A stretch of 64,000 bases of DNA, taken from the NCBI RefSeq assembly GCF_000426725.1, contig NZ_KE384560.1, positions 1,076,960 to 1,140,959 on the forward strand, written 5' to 3'. The notes below the pieces were generated by a model that was not told where the DNA came from, searched no databases, and saw nothing but the letters and a program-made list of their open reading frames with translations. Source of the stretch: Sporocytophaga myxococcoides DSM 11118 (GTDB taxonomy: Bacteria; Bacteroidota; Bacteroidia; Cytophagales; Cytophagaceae). The translations under genes and the position numbers were made by a program. Shown here in pieces: positions 1,911 to 7,996 of this stretch; positions within the stretch are counted from its first letter, which is position 1, and each line of letters opens with the position of its first letter.

Positions 1911-4900
1911 TTAATATTTCAACTCAACAAATCCTTTTATTATGCTGTCTCCATTGTAGAAAACATAATAATAGGTTCCGGCCTGAAGCTGCAACCCCTC
2001 TTCAGTGGTGCCATTCCAGTTGTTTGCATAGCTTTTTCTGCTATACCATACCTGGCCAAAACGATCAAATATTTCCAGTTTATTTTCTTCTTTGTTATTG
2101 ATTCCTCGAATAACGAAATAATCATTCATTCCATCGTTATTGGGGGTAATAATACTCGGAGCTTCCAGGCGATCGTGGTTGGTTAGCTGTATCAGGTAGT
2201 CTTCTGTTTCTCCTGTTTCACCCTGAGAGATACATCCTTGTGAAGAAGTAAAAGCACCGGTAGTACGCATACGCACTCTGAGTCTTCTTGCTCCTGCAAA
2301 ATCAGCATTGCTTGATATGGAAAGATTCTGAAGTGTTATTACTGAATCTTTACCGAAAGATGAAGTAAGGAATTCACCTGCATCATCAAACTCTCCGTTG
2401 TTATTGTAATCTATCCAGATGGCGCTGTAATAAGTGGGAGAGGAAAGCTTATAACTGGATGTATGAATCTCTGCATTATAAATATCTCCCAGGAAAATTT
2501 TTGTACTTATCTCCGATTGGGTATAATCCGAATAACCACTTGGATTACATCCTGAATCTTTGTTACCTATTGATGCCAGTCTGAAATAATCAATCTGTCC
2601 TCCAGCGCAAGGTTCAAATGCTGTAGAAGCGGGGCAGGAGGTGCCCGGAAGAATTACAGTTGATCCTCTATTAATTTTAACTTCAAAGTTGACAGTGTCA
2701 TATGGACTTCCTTCCGGGGTAAAAATGAAGCATCGCAGATTGCCGTTTTCAGAATTTTTATTAAAACCTATTGCAATTGTAGGGCCCGTTTTGTTAGGAA
2801 AAACAACATTTTCGTCTGAGTATTCCCAGTCATATGTATGTCCGCTTAACTGAGGCACTATTGAATACGCCTGCAAGGTATTTTCAGCAACAATTTCTCT
2901 TCCTGAAATAGATAAGATAGGCCCTTTTACTTTCAGTTGTCTTTCAATAGTAGCTGGGAGATAATTCTGATTCCCTTCCTGGTGAGCAATTATAGAAGTA
3001 CTTCCTATACCAGTGAGAGTGACCACACTTCCTGATGTTGAGGCGACAGCAAGATTAGAACTTTCAAATTGTAAAGGTAAACCGGAAGATGAAGTTGCAT
3101 TTAAGGTAAAAGGTGGTTCTCCATAAGTGCGCTCTGCCATTGGCTCAAAGGTTATTAATTGATTAGCCTTGTTTACATTTAAGATTCTATAAACAACATT
3201 TGATGGAAAATAATTCTTGTCTCCGTCGCACCAAGCACTGATCGTAACAAAACCTGCTCCGGTAATTGTAATAACATTTCCAGAGGTAGTAGCTATAGTT
3301 TGAATTTCACTGTAAAGGGTAATAGGAAGACCTGCACTCGACTTGAAATCAGGTACAAATGGAGCATCACCATATGTTTTTGTGGGAATATTTTCAAAGG
3401 TTAATTCTTGTTGTGCCTTGTTAACTGTAAAATCTCTGGGTGTTGATGAGCCGGGAAAATAATTTTCATTGCCTCCTGCATTTGCTGTTAACATAGTAAA
3501 GCCTGCTCCTGTAATATTTGCTATTGCTCCTGAAAATTTAACAACAGAGGTATCAGAGCTTGTAAAAGTTATAGGCATTCCTGAATTAACGGAAGCTTCC
3601 AGTGTAAAAGGCTTATCCCCATATGTCATTTGTAAAAGTGGGTTAAAAGTAAACACAGGTTCAATTCTGCTATCGTACTTTGCAATAAACAGGTCACCAT
3701 TGTTCCCTGAGAAAAAAGCCTGTTTTTGCTGGTCAGGATCGAAGTTACCGCTACCATTGACAGCTCCGCCGATAAATATTTTTCCTTTGCCATTAATAGC
3801 TAATGCAGATACAGTATCGTTGAGATTTCCTCCCATATTTTCAGCCCATATAAATTTACCCTCTTGAGAATATTTGGCCATTACTATATCAGTTGCTAAT
3901 CCATTTAATGTGCTTGAATTTGAATTGACCGGATCTGGATCTAATCTGTTTTGAAAAACTCCGGCAAGGTAAATGGTACCTGATGATGAAGCAGCCACAT
4001 TTAATCCACGAGTCACAGCACCACTTCCAATGACAAGTGACCACCTGTAGGTTCCAAGTGCATCAAACTGAGCAAGGAGGATATTGCAGGAAGATTTTGG
4101 ACTGATGTTATTAGTGACAAATGATGGATCTATGTCTGTCTGTGTTTCCAATGATCCTGTAATGGTAATGTAACCAGAGTTATCAATACAAAGATCATGG
4201 ATCATGTTGGTCTTTCCGGAAAAATTATTTTGAAATGTGTTGATCCATTCCAGCGTTCCTGTCTGAGAATACTTTGCAAGAAAGACAGAACCATAGTTGC
4301 TTTTTTGATCATTAGCGGTTTCAGTAATATCAAAATCTACTGATTCTATAAAATAACCTGTTGTATAGATACTTCCCTTAGAATCTGTAATATGAGCCGT
4401 AATTTCACATTCTGCATTAAAACCGGTCATTATTCCGCCCCATTTAATTTCTCCTGTGGTTCCACTGTATACTGAAATGAAAGAAGAAGTTTGTCCTCTG
4501 CTTTGTTTATAATAACCCTTGCTGTTAAGGTCTAAATCAATCTGGTTTAACTGATTTTTAGATATCCAATTTCCGGTTAAAGTAATGTTGCCGGACTCTT
4601 CAGTTGATATACCAATTCCCACATTATCTGAAGAGGATTTTACCATGCCAGACCAGATTAATGAACCATCGGTTCCTTTATATTTAGCGACAAAAGTTTG
4701 TTTGACATTAAATTCCCCAAAAAGGCTGCGGATGCCTTCTCCAGGATCGACGTCTATATTTCCCTGGAAATAACCGGTGATGTATACATTACCATCTTTA
4801 TCAACGCAAATACTTTTACCTTCATCGTCCTGTGAGGATCCGAGTCCAAAGGCCCAGGCTAGTTTCCCGTCTTGATTATATTTGGCAACAAAGATATCTT

Positions 4901-5138
4901 TTTCACCATGTCCTACTATAAATTTATTGGTGTTATCTGGGTCAAAATCAAGTCCGGAGCCGGTATAATAACCTGTAGCTATAATACTTCCATCACCATC
5001 AAGAACAAAGTCATTTGTTTGCTGAAGTAAGCCCTGGCCTTCATAAATGGAGAATCCCCAGTCAAACTTACTATGCTGAGCTTTTAATCCTGTGATGGAA
5101 AGCAATAAAAGGATAATTAAGAAAAATTTACTTTTCAT
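1911..5138 (-). CDS. Large secreted mosaic protein with type B T9SS sorting domain
   Basis: A predicted exported, surface-attached protein of 1075 residues. In order it has a signal peptide (MKSKFFLIILLLLSITGLKAQ), about 470 residues of SBBP-like beta-propeller repeats (recurring phrases such as GNVYITGYF and DFDPDN), three MBG-like Ig repeats of about 78 residues (about 493-740, each starting with a YGD/E-x-PF phrase), a PKD-like segment, a GEVED-type domain (about 833-983, with the IDYNNNGEFDDAGEF loop), and a C-terminal gliding-motility/CHU_C-type sorting domain (about 996-1075, TPNNDGMNDYF, FDRFGQVWY, GTYYYVF). The C-terminal domain marks it as a type IX secretion substrate. I chose the ATG at 5138 rather than 5156 because it places the signal peptide at the N-terminus. 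Its ligand or biological target cannot be read from sequence. Confidence 0.85.
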   Translation of the reverse strand: MKSKFFLIILLLLSITGLKAQHSKFDWGFSIYEGQGLLQQTNDFVLDGDGSIIATGYYTGSGLDFDPDNTNKFIVGHGEKDIFVAKYNQDGKLAWAFGLGSSQDDEGKSICVDKDGNVYITGYFQGNIDVDPGEGIRSLFGEFNVKQTFVAKYKGTDGSLIWSGMVKSSSDNVGIGISTEESGNITLTGNWISKNQLNQIDLDLNSKGYYKQSRGQTSSFISVYSGTTGEIKWGGIMTGFNAECEITAHITDSKGSIYTTGYFIESVDFDITETANDQKSNYGSVFLAKYSQTGTLEWINTFQNNFSGKTNMIHDLCIDNSGYITITGSLETQTDIDPSFVTNNISPKSSCNILLAQFDALGTYRWSLVIGSGAVTRGLNVAASSSGTIYLAGVFQNRLDPDPVNSNSSTLNGLATDIVMAKYSQEGKFIWAENMGGNLNDTVSALAINGKGKIFIGGAVNGSGNFDPDQQKQAFFSGNNGDLFIAKYDSRIEPVFTFNPLLQMTYGDKPFTLEASVNSGMPITFTSSDTSVVKFSGAIANITGAGFTMLTANAGGNENYFPGSSTPRDFTVNKAQQELTFENIPTKTYGDAPFVPDFKSSAGLPITLYSEIQTIATTSGNVITITGAGFVTISAWCDGDKNYFPSNVVYRILNVNKANQLITFEPMAERTYGEPPFTLNATSSSGLPLQFESSNLAVASTSGSVVTLTGIGSTSIIAHQEGNQNYLPATIERQLKVKGPILSISGREIVAENTLQAYSIVPQLSGHTYDWEYSDENVVFPNKTGPTIAIGFNKNSENGNLRCFIFTPEGSPYDTVNFEVKINRGSTVILPGTSCPASTAFEPCAGGQIDYFRLASIGNKDSGCNPSGYSDYTQSEISTKIFLGDIYNAEIHTSSYKLSSPTYYSAIWIDYNNNGEFDDAGEFLTSSFGKDSVITLQNLSISSNADFAGARRLRVRMRTTGAFTSSQGCISQGETGETEDYLIQLTNHDRLEAPSIITPNNDGMNDYFVIRGINNKEENKLEIFDRFGQVWYSRKSYANNWNGTTEEGLQLQAGTYYYVFYNGDSIIKGFVELKY

Positions 5139-5333
5139 TTGTAAAGACAATGTCATTTGAAAAATAGACTAAATTTATATATTCAAAAATACGATTTTTA
5201 GACCGCTTGACAATGAGTTTTATAAAGAGTCTTGAAAGATTGATTTTGGGAAGATTAAAAGTTTTAGTTATTGATTTATAGTATTTTAGGTTTTGTTGGA
5301 TGTAAGCTTATAAAACTTTCAGATCTAAAGTAA

Positions 5334-5780
5334 ATGGAAGCAGTTATATTTTGTGGTATTCAGGCTTCTGGAAAATCCACTTTTTTCAAGGATAAGTTTT
5401 TTAAAACGCACGTGCGCATTTCTATGGATTTGCTAAGGACAAGAAACAGAGAAAGGCTTTTTCTGGAAACCTGTTTGAAAACACAACAGCCTTTTGTGGT
5501 TGAAAATACAAATCCTACAAGAGTAGATAGAGAGAAGTATATATCAATGGCCAGGGAAAGAGATTATAAGGTCATAGGTTATTATTTCAAAACAAACCTG
5601 AAAGATGCTCTTGAAAGGAATAGCTGTAGAGATGGCAAGGAGTGTGTACCAGAAGTAGGAATAAAAGCCACATTGAAAAAGTTTGAACTACCTTCTCTTG
5701 ATGAAGGCTTTGATAAGTTGTATTGTGTTGAAATTATTAATGGGGAATTTATATTAAAAGATTGGTCAGATGAAGTTTGA
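5334..5780 (+). CDS. Polynucleotide-kinase-like P-loop kinase
   Basis: A compact 148-residue P-loop kinase. Walker A is GIQASGKST (residues 8-16). It is followed by D32-L-L-R35, the D-x-x-R spacing of the general base and acceptor-phosphate-binding residues in T4 Pnk-type 5'-kinases. A NTNPTR segment (about 60) and an Arg-containing lid (about 99-113, ending in VPEV) also fit that group. The predicted reaction is phosphate transfer from ATP to a 5'-hydroxyl polynucleotide end; the substrate is inferred. The last 11 bases overlap the start of the Thg1-like gene, so the two are translationally coupled, which points to an RNA-end-processing pair. No phosphatase or ligase domain is attached. A small-molecule kinase remains possible. 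Confidence 0.72.
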   Translation: MEAVIFCGIQASGKSTFFKDKFFKTHVRISMDLLRTRNRERLFLETCLKTQQPFVVENTNPTRVDREKYISMARERDYKVIGYYFKTNLKDALERNSCRDGKECVPEVGIKATLKKFELPSLDEGFDKLYCVEIINGEFILKDWSDEV

Positions 5781-6540
5781 TGAATTGGATAGTAAGATGA
5801 GGGTTTATGAAACTGCTCATGATATATCCGTATTACCTGGTATTTACATGGTTGCCAGAATTGATGGGAGAGGCTTTACAAAACTTACAAAAGAAGTACA
5901 TCCGTTTGAAGCTCCTTTTGATGTGAGGTTCAGAGATTATATGATTGAAACGGTGAAACACCTTATGAACTGTGGCTTTAAGGTCATTTACGGATATACT
6001 GAAAGTGATGAAATATCACTGTTGTTTGATTTAAATGAAAATTTGTTTTCTCGCAAACACAGAAAGTATAACTCAATACTTGCAGGTGAAGCCAGTGCTA
6101 AATTTTCCTTACTTCTATGCGGGCTTGCAGCATTCGATTGCAGAATCTGCGAGTTGCCAAACAAGCAACTAGTGATAGATTATTTCAGATGGAGAAATGA
6201 AGATGCATACAGAAACTCTTTGAATGCCCATTGCTACTGGAGGTTGCGGAAAGACAATTTTACACAAGCCGATGCGACTAAAAAGATAGAAGGGATGAGT
6301 GTTGCGGAGAAGAATGAATTATTATTTTCTTATAATATAAACTTCAATGATTTGCCAGTCTGGCAGAAGAGGGGCATTGGGTTTTACTGGGAAATGGTCG
6401 ATAAGGAAGGCTTTAATCCTAAAACAAACCAGCAGGTGATATCTAAAAGAAGACAGCTAAAGGTAGATATGAAACTACCAATGAAAGATGAATATTCAAA
6501 GTTCATTTCGGACATCATTGAATTGAATAATATAGAATAA
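5770..6540 (+). CDS. Thg1-like 3'-5' nucleotidyltransferase (TLP)
   Basis: A 256-residue member of the tRNA-His guanylyltransferase (Thg1) superfamily, which adds nucleotides to RNA 5' ends in the 3'-5' direction. The metal-binding motifs are intact: RIDGRGF with D32, and TESDE with D80 and E81, in the places of D29, D76 and E77 of human Thg1. An AHCYWRLR segment near residue 157 is of the bacterial/archaeal Thg1-like type. Bacterial TLPs are known to repair 5'-truncated tRNAs. The ATG at 5770 lies inside the end of the upstream kinase gene (11-base overlap). A bidirectional terminator follows. The family is firm; whether it matures tRNA-His or repairs broken tRNA is not shown. Confidence 0.9.
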   Translation: MKFDELDSKMRVYETAHDISVLPGIYMVARIDGRGFTKLTKEVHPFEAPFDVRFRDYMIETVKHLMNCGFKVIYGYTESDEISLLFDLNENLFSRKHRKYNSILAGEASAKFSLLLCGLAAFDCRICELPNKQLVIDYFRWRNEDAYRNSLNAHCYWRLRKDNFTQADATKKIEGMSVAEKNELLFSYNINFNDLPVWQKRGIGFYWEMVDKEGFNPKTNQQVISKRRQLKVDMKLPMKDEYSKFISDIIELNNIE

Positions 6541-6579
6541 AAAGACAAAGCCCCTGTTTATTATCAGGGCTTTGTCTTT
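6541..6579. terminator. Bidirectional terminator
   Basis: A stem of about 15 bp, AAAGACAAAGCCC(C)TG with CAGGGCTTTGTCTTT and one bulged C, with A-rich and T-rich flanks. It lies between the convergent Thg1-like gene (stop 6540) and TPM gene (stop 6587). Confidence 0.85.
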
Positions 6580-6586
6580 TTAACTA

Positions 6587-7996
6587 TTACCAGCTTCCAC
6601 CAGCACCGCCACCACCAGATGATCCGCCTCCAAAGGAACTACTGCTACTACTGCTGCTTGATGAAGAACTGGAGCGCTCTTTTTGAGGGATAGTATATGT
6701 TTGTTTATAAGTATGATCACAGTTTTTGCATGCATAAACCTTTTCCCCGACCCCGGAACTGCTATAGGTAGCTGCTTTCAGTGTTCTATTTGATTTTAAA
6801 TAACCAGTAATGTATTTGCAGCCAGGGCAATTCGAATATTTGGAAAAGGTTCTTTCATATTTGTGAACCTTTTGTTCATCGTTATCTTCTGTAATCCACA
6901 CATCGTAATCAACGGATTTGATGCCTTCTTCAACAAGCTGTCCTTTATTCAAATACTGATCATCTGTCTCTTCATCCAGTTTGGTCATGGGTTTACCTAA
7001 GGAAGAAAATCTTGGAGCATTTCTTAAAAAATGTTTGCGTTTGTAATACCATATAAAGTAGGGTATAAATACAAATGGGAAGAAGATGATGTACAATGCA
7101 ATGGAAGAATGGCTATTCTTTAATTTGGTCAGTTCTACATAAGGATCATTGTCTTTGACATATTTATTAGTTTTACGACGGGAAACAACAGATAGTATAA
7201 GATACTGACTATAAAATAATAATATAAAAGACCAATGGCTGGATGAATCAAATATGATGTCAGGCATCATATAGTTAAGAAGTAATATTACTGGCACTGA
7301 ATATATAATTAGATAAAACCAAAGAGGATCGAGTGGGCGGCTTTCGATTTTACCATCAGTCTTAAATTTTTTAACCTTTGAGTTTCTTACAACCAATGTG
7401 ATGACGAGGCATAGAAAAGCCAGACCTGCATAGAATTTATAGTCGGGGATGCTTTTAAACAAAGCAGAGTTGTTTTCGCTCCTGATCGATTCAGCTACCT
7501 CAGGATCCGCAAGAATTTCGCTTAATTTGGCAAGGCCTGCAAGTATGCCACCACCAAAATTGCCTTCTTTAAAATGGGGTACCATTTCCTGTTGGCCAAT
7601 TCTGAAGAGTGTGACATCGGGAAGAGTTCCTTCCAGTCCATATCCTGTTTCAAACTCCCATCTTTTAGATTCCATTACTATGAGAAGTAGCAGACCATTG
7701 TTTTTATCTTTTTGGCCGATTCCCCAATGGTTAAACAACCTGTTTGCAAAATCCTTAGGTACCTGATCTCCGATGGATTGCAGCACCACTACTGCAATCT
7801 GAGCAGTAGTTTTATTTTCTACATCTGTAATAAGCGAATTGATAGCATTTACATCCTGTTCACTTAGAAGGTTGTCAGGATTGCTTAACCATCCACCATC
7901 TATATTTTTAGGATTAGGAACTGTTTCAATTGTGTATTCAGCTTTAAGTTGAAAAGATTGAAAAGCAATCAATAATAGAAAAATGTATTTGGCCAT
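6587..7996 (-). CDS. TPM-domain membrane protein (YgcG family) with zinc-ribbon
   Basis: A 469-residue membrane protein. It has a signal sequence (MAKYIFLLLIAFQSFQLKA), a TPM domain at about 30-170 (LLSEQDVNAINSLI, WGIGQKDKNNGLLLLI, FETGYGLEGTLPD), several hydrophobic helices (about 185-320), a CPGC...CKNC metal-binding pair (about 392-428), and the low-complexity C-terminus typical of the family: a run of Ser followed by FGGGSSGGGGAGGSW. TPM proteins have been linked to phosphatase activity in plants and to envelope functions in bacteria; the role here is unknown. The Cys4 zinc-ribbon between the membrane part and the Ser/Gly tail is an addition I do not associate with most YgcG proteins. 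Confidence 0.8.
   Translation of the reverse strand: MAKYIFLLLIAFQSFQLKAEYTIETVPNPKNIDGGWLSNPDNLLSEQDVNAINSLITDVENKTTAQIAVVVLQSIGDQVPKDFANRLFNHWGIGQKDKNNGLLLLIVMESKRWEFETGYGLEGTLPDVTLFRIGQQEMVPHFKEGNFGGGILAGLAKLSEILADPEVAESIRSENNSALFKSIPDYKFYAGLAFLCLVITLVVRNSKVKKFKTDGKIESRPLDPLWFYLIIYSVPVILLLNYMMPDIIFDSSSHWSFILLFYSQYLILSVVSRRKTNKYVKDNDPYVELTKLKNSHSSIALYIIFFPFVFIPYFIWYYKRKHFLRNAPRFSSLGKPMTKLDEETDDQYLNKGQLVEEGIKSVDYDVWITEDNDEQKVHKYERTFSKYSNCPGCKYITGYLKSNRTLKAATYSSSGVGEKVYACKNCDHTYKQTYTIPQKERSSSSSSSSSSSSSFGGGSSGGGGAGGSW

Follow-up and report, generated by a model that had tools for sequence, protein, structure and literature searches.

The two overlapping genes at positions 5334-6540 of the window (the 64,000-nucleotide stretch of Sporocytophaga myxococcoides DSM 11118 that was analysed, contig NZ_KE384560.1) encode a polynucleotide-kinase (Pnk)-type P-loop kinase and a Thg1-like protein (TLP), and they probably constitute a co-inherited two-enzyme unit for the repair of RNA 5′ ends. 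To our knowledge, bacterial TLPs have no agreed physiological role so far; the near-constant kinase partner and the integration of the pair in Hen1–Pnkp operons suggest that this role is RNA repair. In the proposed mechanism, the kinase would phosphorylate 5′-OH ends arising from RNA damage (ribotoxin-type or hydrolytic cleavage), and the TLP would then activate the 5′-phosphate and restore lost 5′ nucleotides by templated 3′-to-5′ addition, its most likely targets being tRNAs truncated in the acceptor stem. Sealing, after or alongside the TLP step, would fall to ligases whose genes lie outside this locus. We infer 5′-OH RNA as the substrate of the kinase, the kinase product as the substrate of the TLP, and tRNA as the main target.

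Published work on the individual steps is as follows: Thg1 and TLPs first activate a 5′-monophosphate and then add nucleotides in the 3′-to-5′ direction (PMC3701042), those TLPs of bacteria and archaea that have been characterised act preferentially on 5′-truncated tRNA rather than on full-length tRNA-His (PMC6471195), and ends produced by RNases that leave 5′-OH groups need a polynucleotide kinase before use (PMC7824862). In the main text of Anantharaman, Iyer and Aravind 2010 (PMC2904730), a kinase of the polynucleotide kinase family is described as the most persistent neighbour of bacterial Thg1 and is proposed to make the 5′-phosphate for Thg1. Because both the pairing and the mechanism were published there, the idea pursued here is a published prediction.

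The locus comprises the following features:
5334..5780, plus strand: Pnk-type P-loop kinase, 148 aa (Pfam/NCBIfam matches, alignment, AlphaFold2 model)
5770..6540, plus strand: Thg1-like 3′-5′ polymerase (TLP), 256 aa, active site D32, D80, E81 (Pfam matches, alignment)
5770..5780, plus strand: 11-nt coding overlap, ATGAAGTTTGA (kinase ending in DEV and stop codon, TLP beginning with MKFD), length conserved across phyla
6538..6582, plus strand: strong, approximately symmetrical terminator hairpin closing the kinase–TLP unit (MFE -24.4 kcal/mol, z -7.8)

Both open reading frames were found as originally described, with positions 5770-5780 common to the two. The unit is flanked by minus-strand genes (1911-5156 and 6587-7996) and contains no other gene. 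When both strands were scored, the hairpin at 6538-6582 was terminator-like in both orientations, and it is probably shared by the pair and the opposite-strand gene 6587-7996.

The kinase matches Pfam AAA_33 with 43.1 bits (cut-off 27), and its best named relatives are polynucleotide kinases. Its scores against TIGR01663 (PNK-3′Pase, 45.9 bits) and TIGR04075 (bacterial Pnkp, 27 bits) lie far under the equivalog cut-offs of 502.8 and 750, respectively, because these models describe multidomain proteins and the kinase is a single-domain relative. Its motifs are a P-loop (GIQASGKST, residues 8-16), D32, T36-R37-N38, N58-T59-N60 and the lid R95-N-x-x-R99. In an alignment of the window kinase with 70 kinases from related loci (71 sequences), residues G8, G13, K14, D32, T59, R66, N96, R99, P120 and E124-G125-F126 were invariant, the P-loop had the form G8-x4-G13-K14-(S/T) throughout, N58 and N60 were nearly invariant, and basic residues were conserved at positions 37 (R/K) and 39 (R/K) and at lid R99. 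Position 35, an arginine in the window kinase, is occupied by K (39 sequences), N (20), R (6), H (5) or T (1), and this variability ruled out D-x-x-R as evidence for a Pnk. Of the Pnk signature that had been claimed, the P-loop, D32 and the lid arginine (R99, 71 of 71) thus stand, and the D-x-x-R arginine R35 falls away as it is not a signature of this family. The kinase accordingly combines a P-loop, a catalytic aspartate and a lid arginine in a Pnk-type fold, without the D-x-x-R of T4/Cth Pnk; mammalian PNKP also has no arginine at the aligned position, so the missing motif excludes only a T4/Cth-like variant. Residues K14, D32, 39 (R/K) and R99 align with K377, D396, R403 and R463 of mammalian PNKP, which we take to have catalytic roles. 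As these positions match PNKP while R35 varies, the kinase is, judged from its sequence, of the PNKP type rather than the T4/Cth D-x-x-R type.

An AlphaFold2 model of the kinase (pLDDT 94.2, pTM 0.88) gave mammalian PNKP as its best PDB match (Z 18.8, 1.5 Å over 138 residues). The other polynucleotide kinases matched were Clostridium thermocellum Pnkp (Z 17.7) and T4 Pnk (Z 13.6); in the structural comparison with T4 Pnk that had been suggested, this predicted model matched the phage enzyme with a lower score than mammalian PNKP. Two fungal kinases deposited with GDP were matched as well (Z ~18), as were PSTK (Z 15.2), zeta toxin (Z 14.5) and PFKFB (Z 13.8). The predicted fold by itself would not fix the substrate as RNA, because mammalian PNKP, to whose solved structure it is closest, is a kinase of DNA ends.

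The TLP has the attributes of the Thg1/TLP superfamily, namely both domains above the curated cut-off (Thg1, PF04446, 106.1 bits, cut-off 29.2; Thg1C, PF14413, 56.9 bits, cut-off 26.3) and three metal-binding carboxylates. The latter, D32, D80 and E81, were invariant in 81 of 81 sequences, in agreement with the intact active site that had been claimed. Among the PADLOC anti-phage defence models, none matched the kinase and the TLP gave only a partial match (E=0.005); with no PADLOC match for the pair, a known anti-phage defence system was rejected.

The three further genomes sampled from the genus all carry the pair at the same locus. Within the genus, purifying selection acts on both genes, with dN/dS values (window versus G002) of ~0.10 for the kinase and ~0.065 for the TLP. 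The TLP frame is broken in two genus-mates. In G003, the frameshift is likely to be an assembly error because two of the genes nearby carry frameshifts too, and it was rejected as a sign of decay. In G001, a single-base insertion (L012, ~1640-1665) affects only the TLP, the kinase and the other nearby genes compared being intact, and it may be a sign of decay.

Co-occurrence was assessed with the best 80 TLP relatives in GTDB contigs, a set that includes several species per genus, so that the loci are not independent. At 73 of these 80 loci a kinase lies within 600 nt of the TLP (one kinase is cut by a contig end, and one is a remnant), and the Thg1–Pnk-family neighbourhood reported in 2010 is thereby recovered in about ten phyla, assigned from the record titles: Bacteroidota, Pseudomonadota, Bacillota, Myxococcota, Cyanobacteriota, Spirochaetota, Chloroflexota, Acidobacteriota, Planctomycetota and Lentisphaerae. 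The two genes overlap at 69 of the 80 loci; since the overlap measures exactly 11 nt at 61 of them, its length is not due to chance. Of the 395 genomes in a spread sample of Bacteroidota, five encode a protein of the Thg1 family and four a member of the kinase family (E<=1e-10); these four are exactly the genomes with this TLP clade, and the kinase is always beside the TLP. The pair is accordingly rare (~1% of the sampled Bacteroidota), and its predicted co-conservation was borne out both across phyla and reciprocally. Pairwise divergences of kinase and TLP are correlated (Mantel r 0.72, 0 of 5000 permutations), as expected for a unit that is inherited and transferred together. A cyanobacterial sample gave the TLP in 10 of 244 genomes, with the kinase adjoining in nine; the TLP that has no kinase (L256) has lost its D-G-R active-site motif.

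Kinase-free TLPs do occur. Phage TLPs are mostly without a kinase: in a set of 80 viral loci, only two have one adjacent. Two related genomes of the same order carry a divergent TLP without a kinase near a macro-domain protein and RtcB (L009, 874-3618, and L010), and in L017 a TLP without a kinase adjoins RtcB. These cases indicate that TLPs can function without the kinase. A pair with the 11-nt overlap was also seen on a 28.6-kb contig of a viral collection (L148, 4388-5771), which may be host DNA.

In other phyla, the pair sits in or beside genes for Hen1, Pnkp, RlaP and RNA ligases; together with the co-conservation and the polynucleotide kinase folds, these neighbours favour the 5′-end repair function originally predicted. 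The order Hen1–kinase–TLP–Pnkp was found in four cyanobacterial loci (L122, 4078-9150; L128, 3347-9477; L132, 1234-6603; L249, 4176-9461), with NCBIfam scores, for the neighbours scored, of 713-746 bits for Hen1 (cut-off 340) and 1216-1456 bits for Pnkp (cut-off 750). In L140, another cyanobacterial locus, the Pnkp that follows Hen1–kinase–TLP lies 4-5 kb further on. In L116, Hen1–kinase–TLP stands where its contig ends, and L120 retains Hen1 only as a remnant. A planctomycete locus (L127) has the order Hen1–DUF5677–(gap)–RlaP–kinase–TLP–Pnkp; from RlaP to Pnkp, each gene abuts or overlaps the next. On a Deinococcus plasmid, kinase–TLP (4-nt overlap) is followed by two small genes and then by Hen1–RlaP–RlaP; an 870-aa "AAA family ATPase" downstream was rejected as a Pnkp, having no NCBIfam match at 1e-20. 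A Bacillota locus (L101) reads kinase–TLP–RNA ligase–Rnl2-type ligase–HD/PNK, and in Chloroflexota (L117) a lone TLP without a kinase adjoins an RlaP or RlaP-like gene. Linkage to Hen1 amounts to six intact cases in 80 loci, from two phyla, plus the Deinococcus case, against ~0.2% per locus by chance, a rough estimate of our own for a 6-Mb genome with a single Hen1 and an inspected stretch of 12 kb.

Several other neighbours were noted. On a Thiodictyon plasmid (L263, 8016-9774), a TLP without a kinase overlaps an RlaP-like gene, with a BREX-2 defence system ~4 kb away. A MazF/PemK-type toxin gene lies beside or between the pair in L118 (825-1166) and L126 (5440-5913) and beside the lone TLP in L117 (1766-2125). 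MazF cleavage leaves 5′-OH ends; seen at only 3 of 80 loci and noticed post hoc, this proximity is at most suggestive. In three Calothrix strains (L139, 4656-5552; L141, 4644-5540; L143, 4647-5540), a gene for a 300-aa protein abuts the kinase gene by 1-7 nt; neither Pfam nor NCBIfam gave a match for the protein from L139, which is a possible third partner of the pair.

The host has further RNA-repair genes. A TROVE/Ro60–RlaP–RlaP–Hen1–Pnkp cluster is located ~290 kb from the pair on the same contig (G000:C19:780436-789431; L247, 436-9431), and the genome encodes two RtcB ligases. The remark that no ligase was in sight is hence correct for the locus and incorrect for the genome, given Hen1–Pnkp, two RlaP and two RtcB. 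The chromosomal tRNA-His gene (L040) encodes G-1 opposite C73, and a second tRNA-His gene on contig C12 (L060) encodes G-1 too; a tRNA-His without encoded G-1, as would go with Thg1 proper, is therefore not what this host has. The 61.8-kb contig C12 starts with divergent tRNA-Gln, tRNA-His and tRNA-Pro genes (G000:C12:6-263; L060). Phages or plasmids often begin with such tRNA gene sets.

The tRNA-His genes bear directly on the founding function of Thg1, after which the family is named. Were the TLP engaged in tRNA-His maturation, it would add G-1, and the kinase would be an accessory or an unrelated passenger. With G-1 encoded by the host there is no need for its addition, and this function was rejected as highly improbable; the gene is also missing from ~99% of the sampled Bacteroidota, and the conserved overlap, reciprocity and co-divergence mark the kinase as no random passenger. 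More weight is due to the kinase substrate. The kinase might have a small molecule or DNA ends as its substrate, its link to the TLP reflecting another pathway such as DNA-end processing: AAA_33 is a broad family that includes small-molecule kinases, the top fold match is a DNA-end kinase, and PFKFB-type kinases reach Z 13-14. Polynucleotide kinases nevertheless stand several Z units above small-molecule kinases in the fold list, the equivalents of PNKP K377, D396, R403 and R463 are kept, and the neighbours in other phyla (Hen1, RlaP, RNA ligase) are RNA-specific, so that we consider such a substrate unlikely.

A different division of labour was already put forward as an alternative in the main text of the 2010 paper (PMC2904730): the kinase supplies the 5′-phosphate and the TLP only adenylylates, passing App-RNA ends to a ligase with no restoration of nucleotides. 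RNA ligases or Pnkp do adjoin the pair in L101, L122, L127, L128, L132 and L249, and TLPs make a 5′-adenylylated intermediate (PMC3701042). The three polymerase carboxylates are, however, invariant in all 81 sequences, as they should be in enzymes that carry out full nucleotidyl transfer. Pnkp and Rnl2-type ligases, moreover, adenylylate 5′-phosphates unaided, which argues against a separate adenylylating partner, and only a small probability is assigned to this role as a ligation adaptor.

Repair of 5′ ends by phosphorylation followed by nucleotide addition consequently remains the preferred reading. Counted against it are the rarity of the pair, the TLPs without a kinase, the TLP frameshift in G001, and the 5′-kinase domain that the Pnkp of Hen1–Pnkp operons already possesses, which makes a second kinase look redundant; in these operons the second kinase may provide a dedicated hand-off to the TLP. 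As a more speculative extension, for which we would claim no more than a tentative standing, kinase–TLP could be a portable 5′-end gap-filling module of a Hen1–Pnkp–RlaP pathway, in which RlaP would rebuild the 3′ side of the break, kinase–TLP would use reverse polymerisation to rebuild the 5′ side, Pnkp would seal and Hen1 would protect. If so, cells could mend RNA breaks with lost nucleotides, beyond clean cuts.

Among known systems, the closest is the Thg1–polynucleotide kinase neighbourhood of 2010 (PMC2904730), the main text of which has the same pair and mechanism as well as macro-domain and RNA-ligase neighbours; its passages on this neighbourhood do not mention Hen1, RlaP or the 11-nt overlap, and Bacteroidetes is not named in the main text. 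No paper naming both Hen1 and Thg1 was found among the papers searched. The present analysis adds how widely and how reciprocally the two genes are paired, the conservation of the 11-nt overlap, the resemblance of the active site to that of PNKP, and the integration with Hen1, Pnkp and RlaP, although the last may already be in print. The Hen1–Pnkp RNA repair operon (TIGR04074/TIGR04075) contains the pair as an insertion in cyanobacteria and the planctomycete, and in Deinococcus the pair stands beside Hen1–RlaP; in the window genome, that operon is separate and the pair has its own terminator. BtTLP (4KGK) and the Methanosarcina acetivorans TLP (5AXK) are homologous over most of the TLP length (80 and 94 bits, respectively) and have the same active site; their preference for 5′-truncated tRNA has been reported (PMC6471195), whereas the window TLP is known from its sequence. 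The mammalian PNKP kinase domain (1YJ5) and the C. thermocellum Pnkp kinase (4GP7) provide the closest folds, and the window kinase shares the PNKP catalytic residues. It differs from both in being a stand-alone protein of 148 aa without a phosphatase or ligase domain, and from T4/Cth Pnk in that the D-x-x-R arginine is not a conserved residue of its family.
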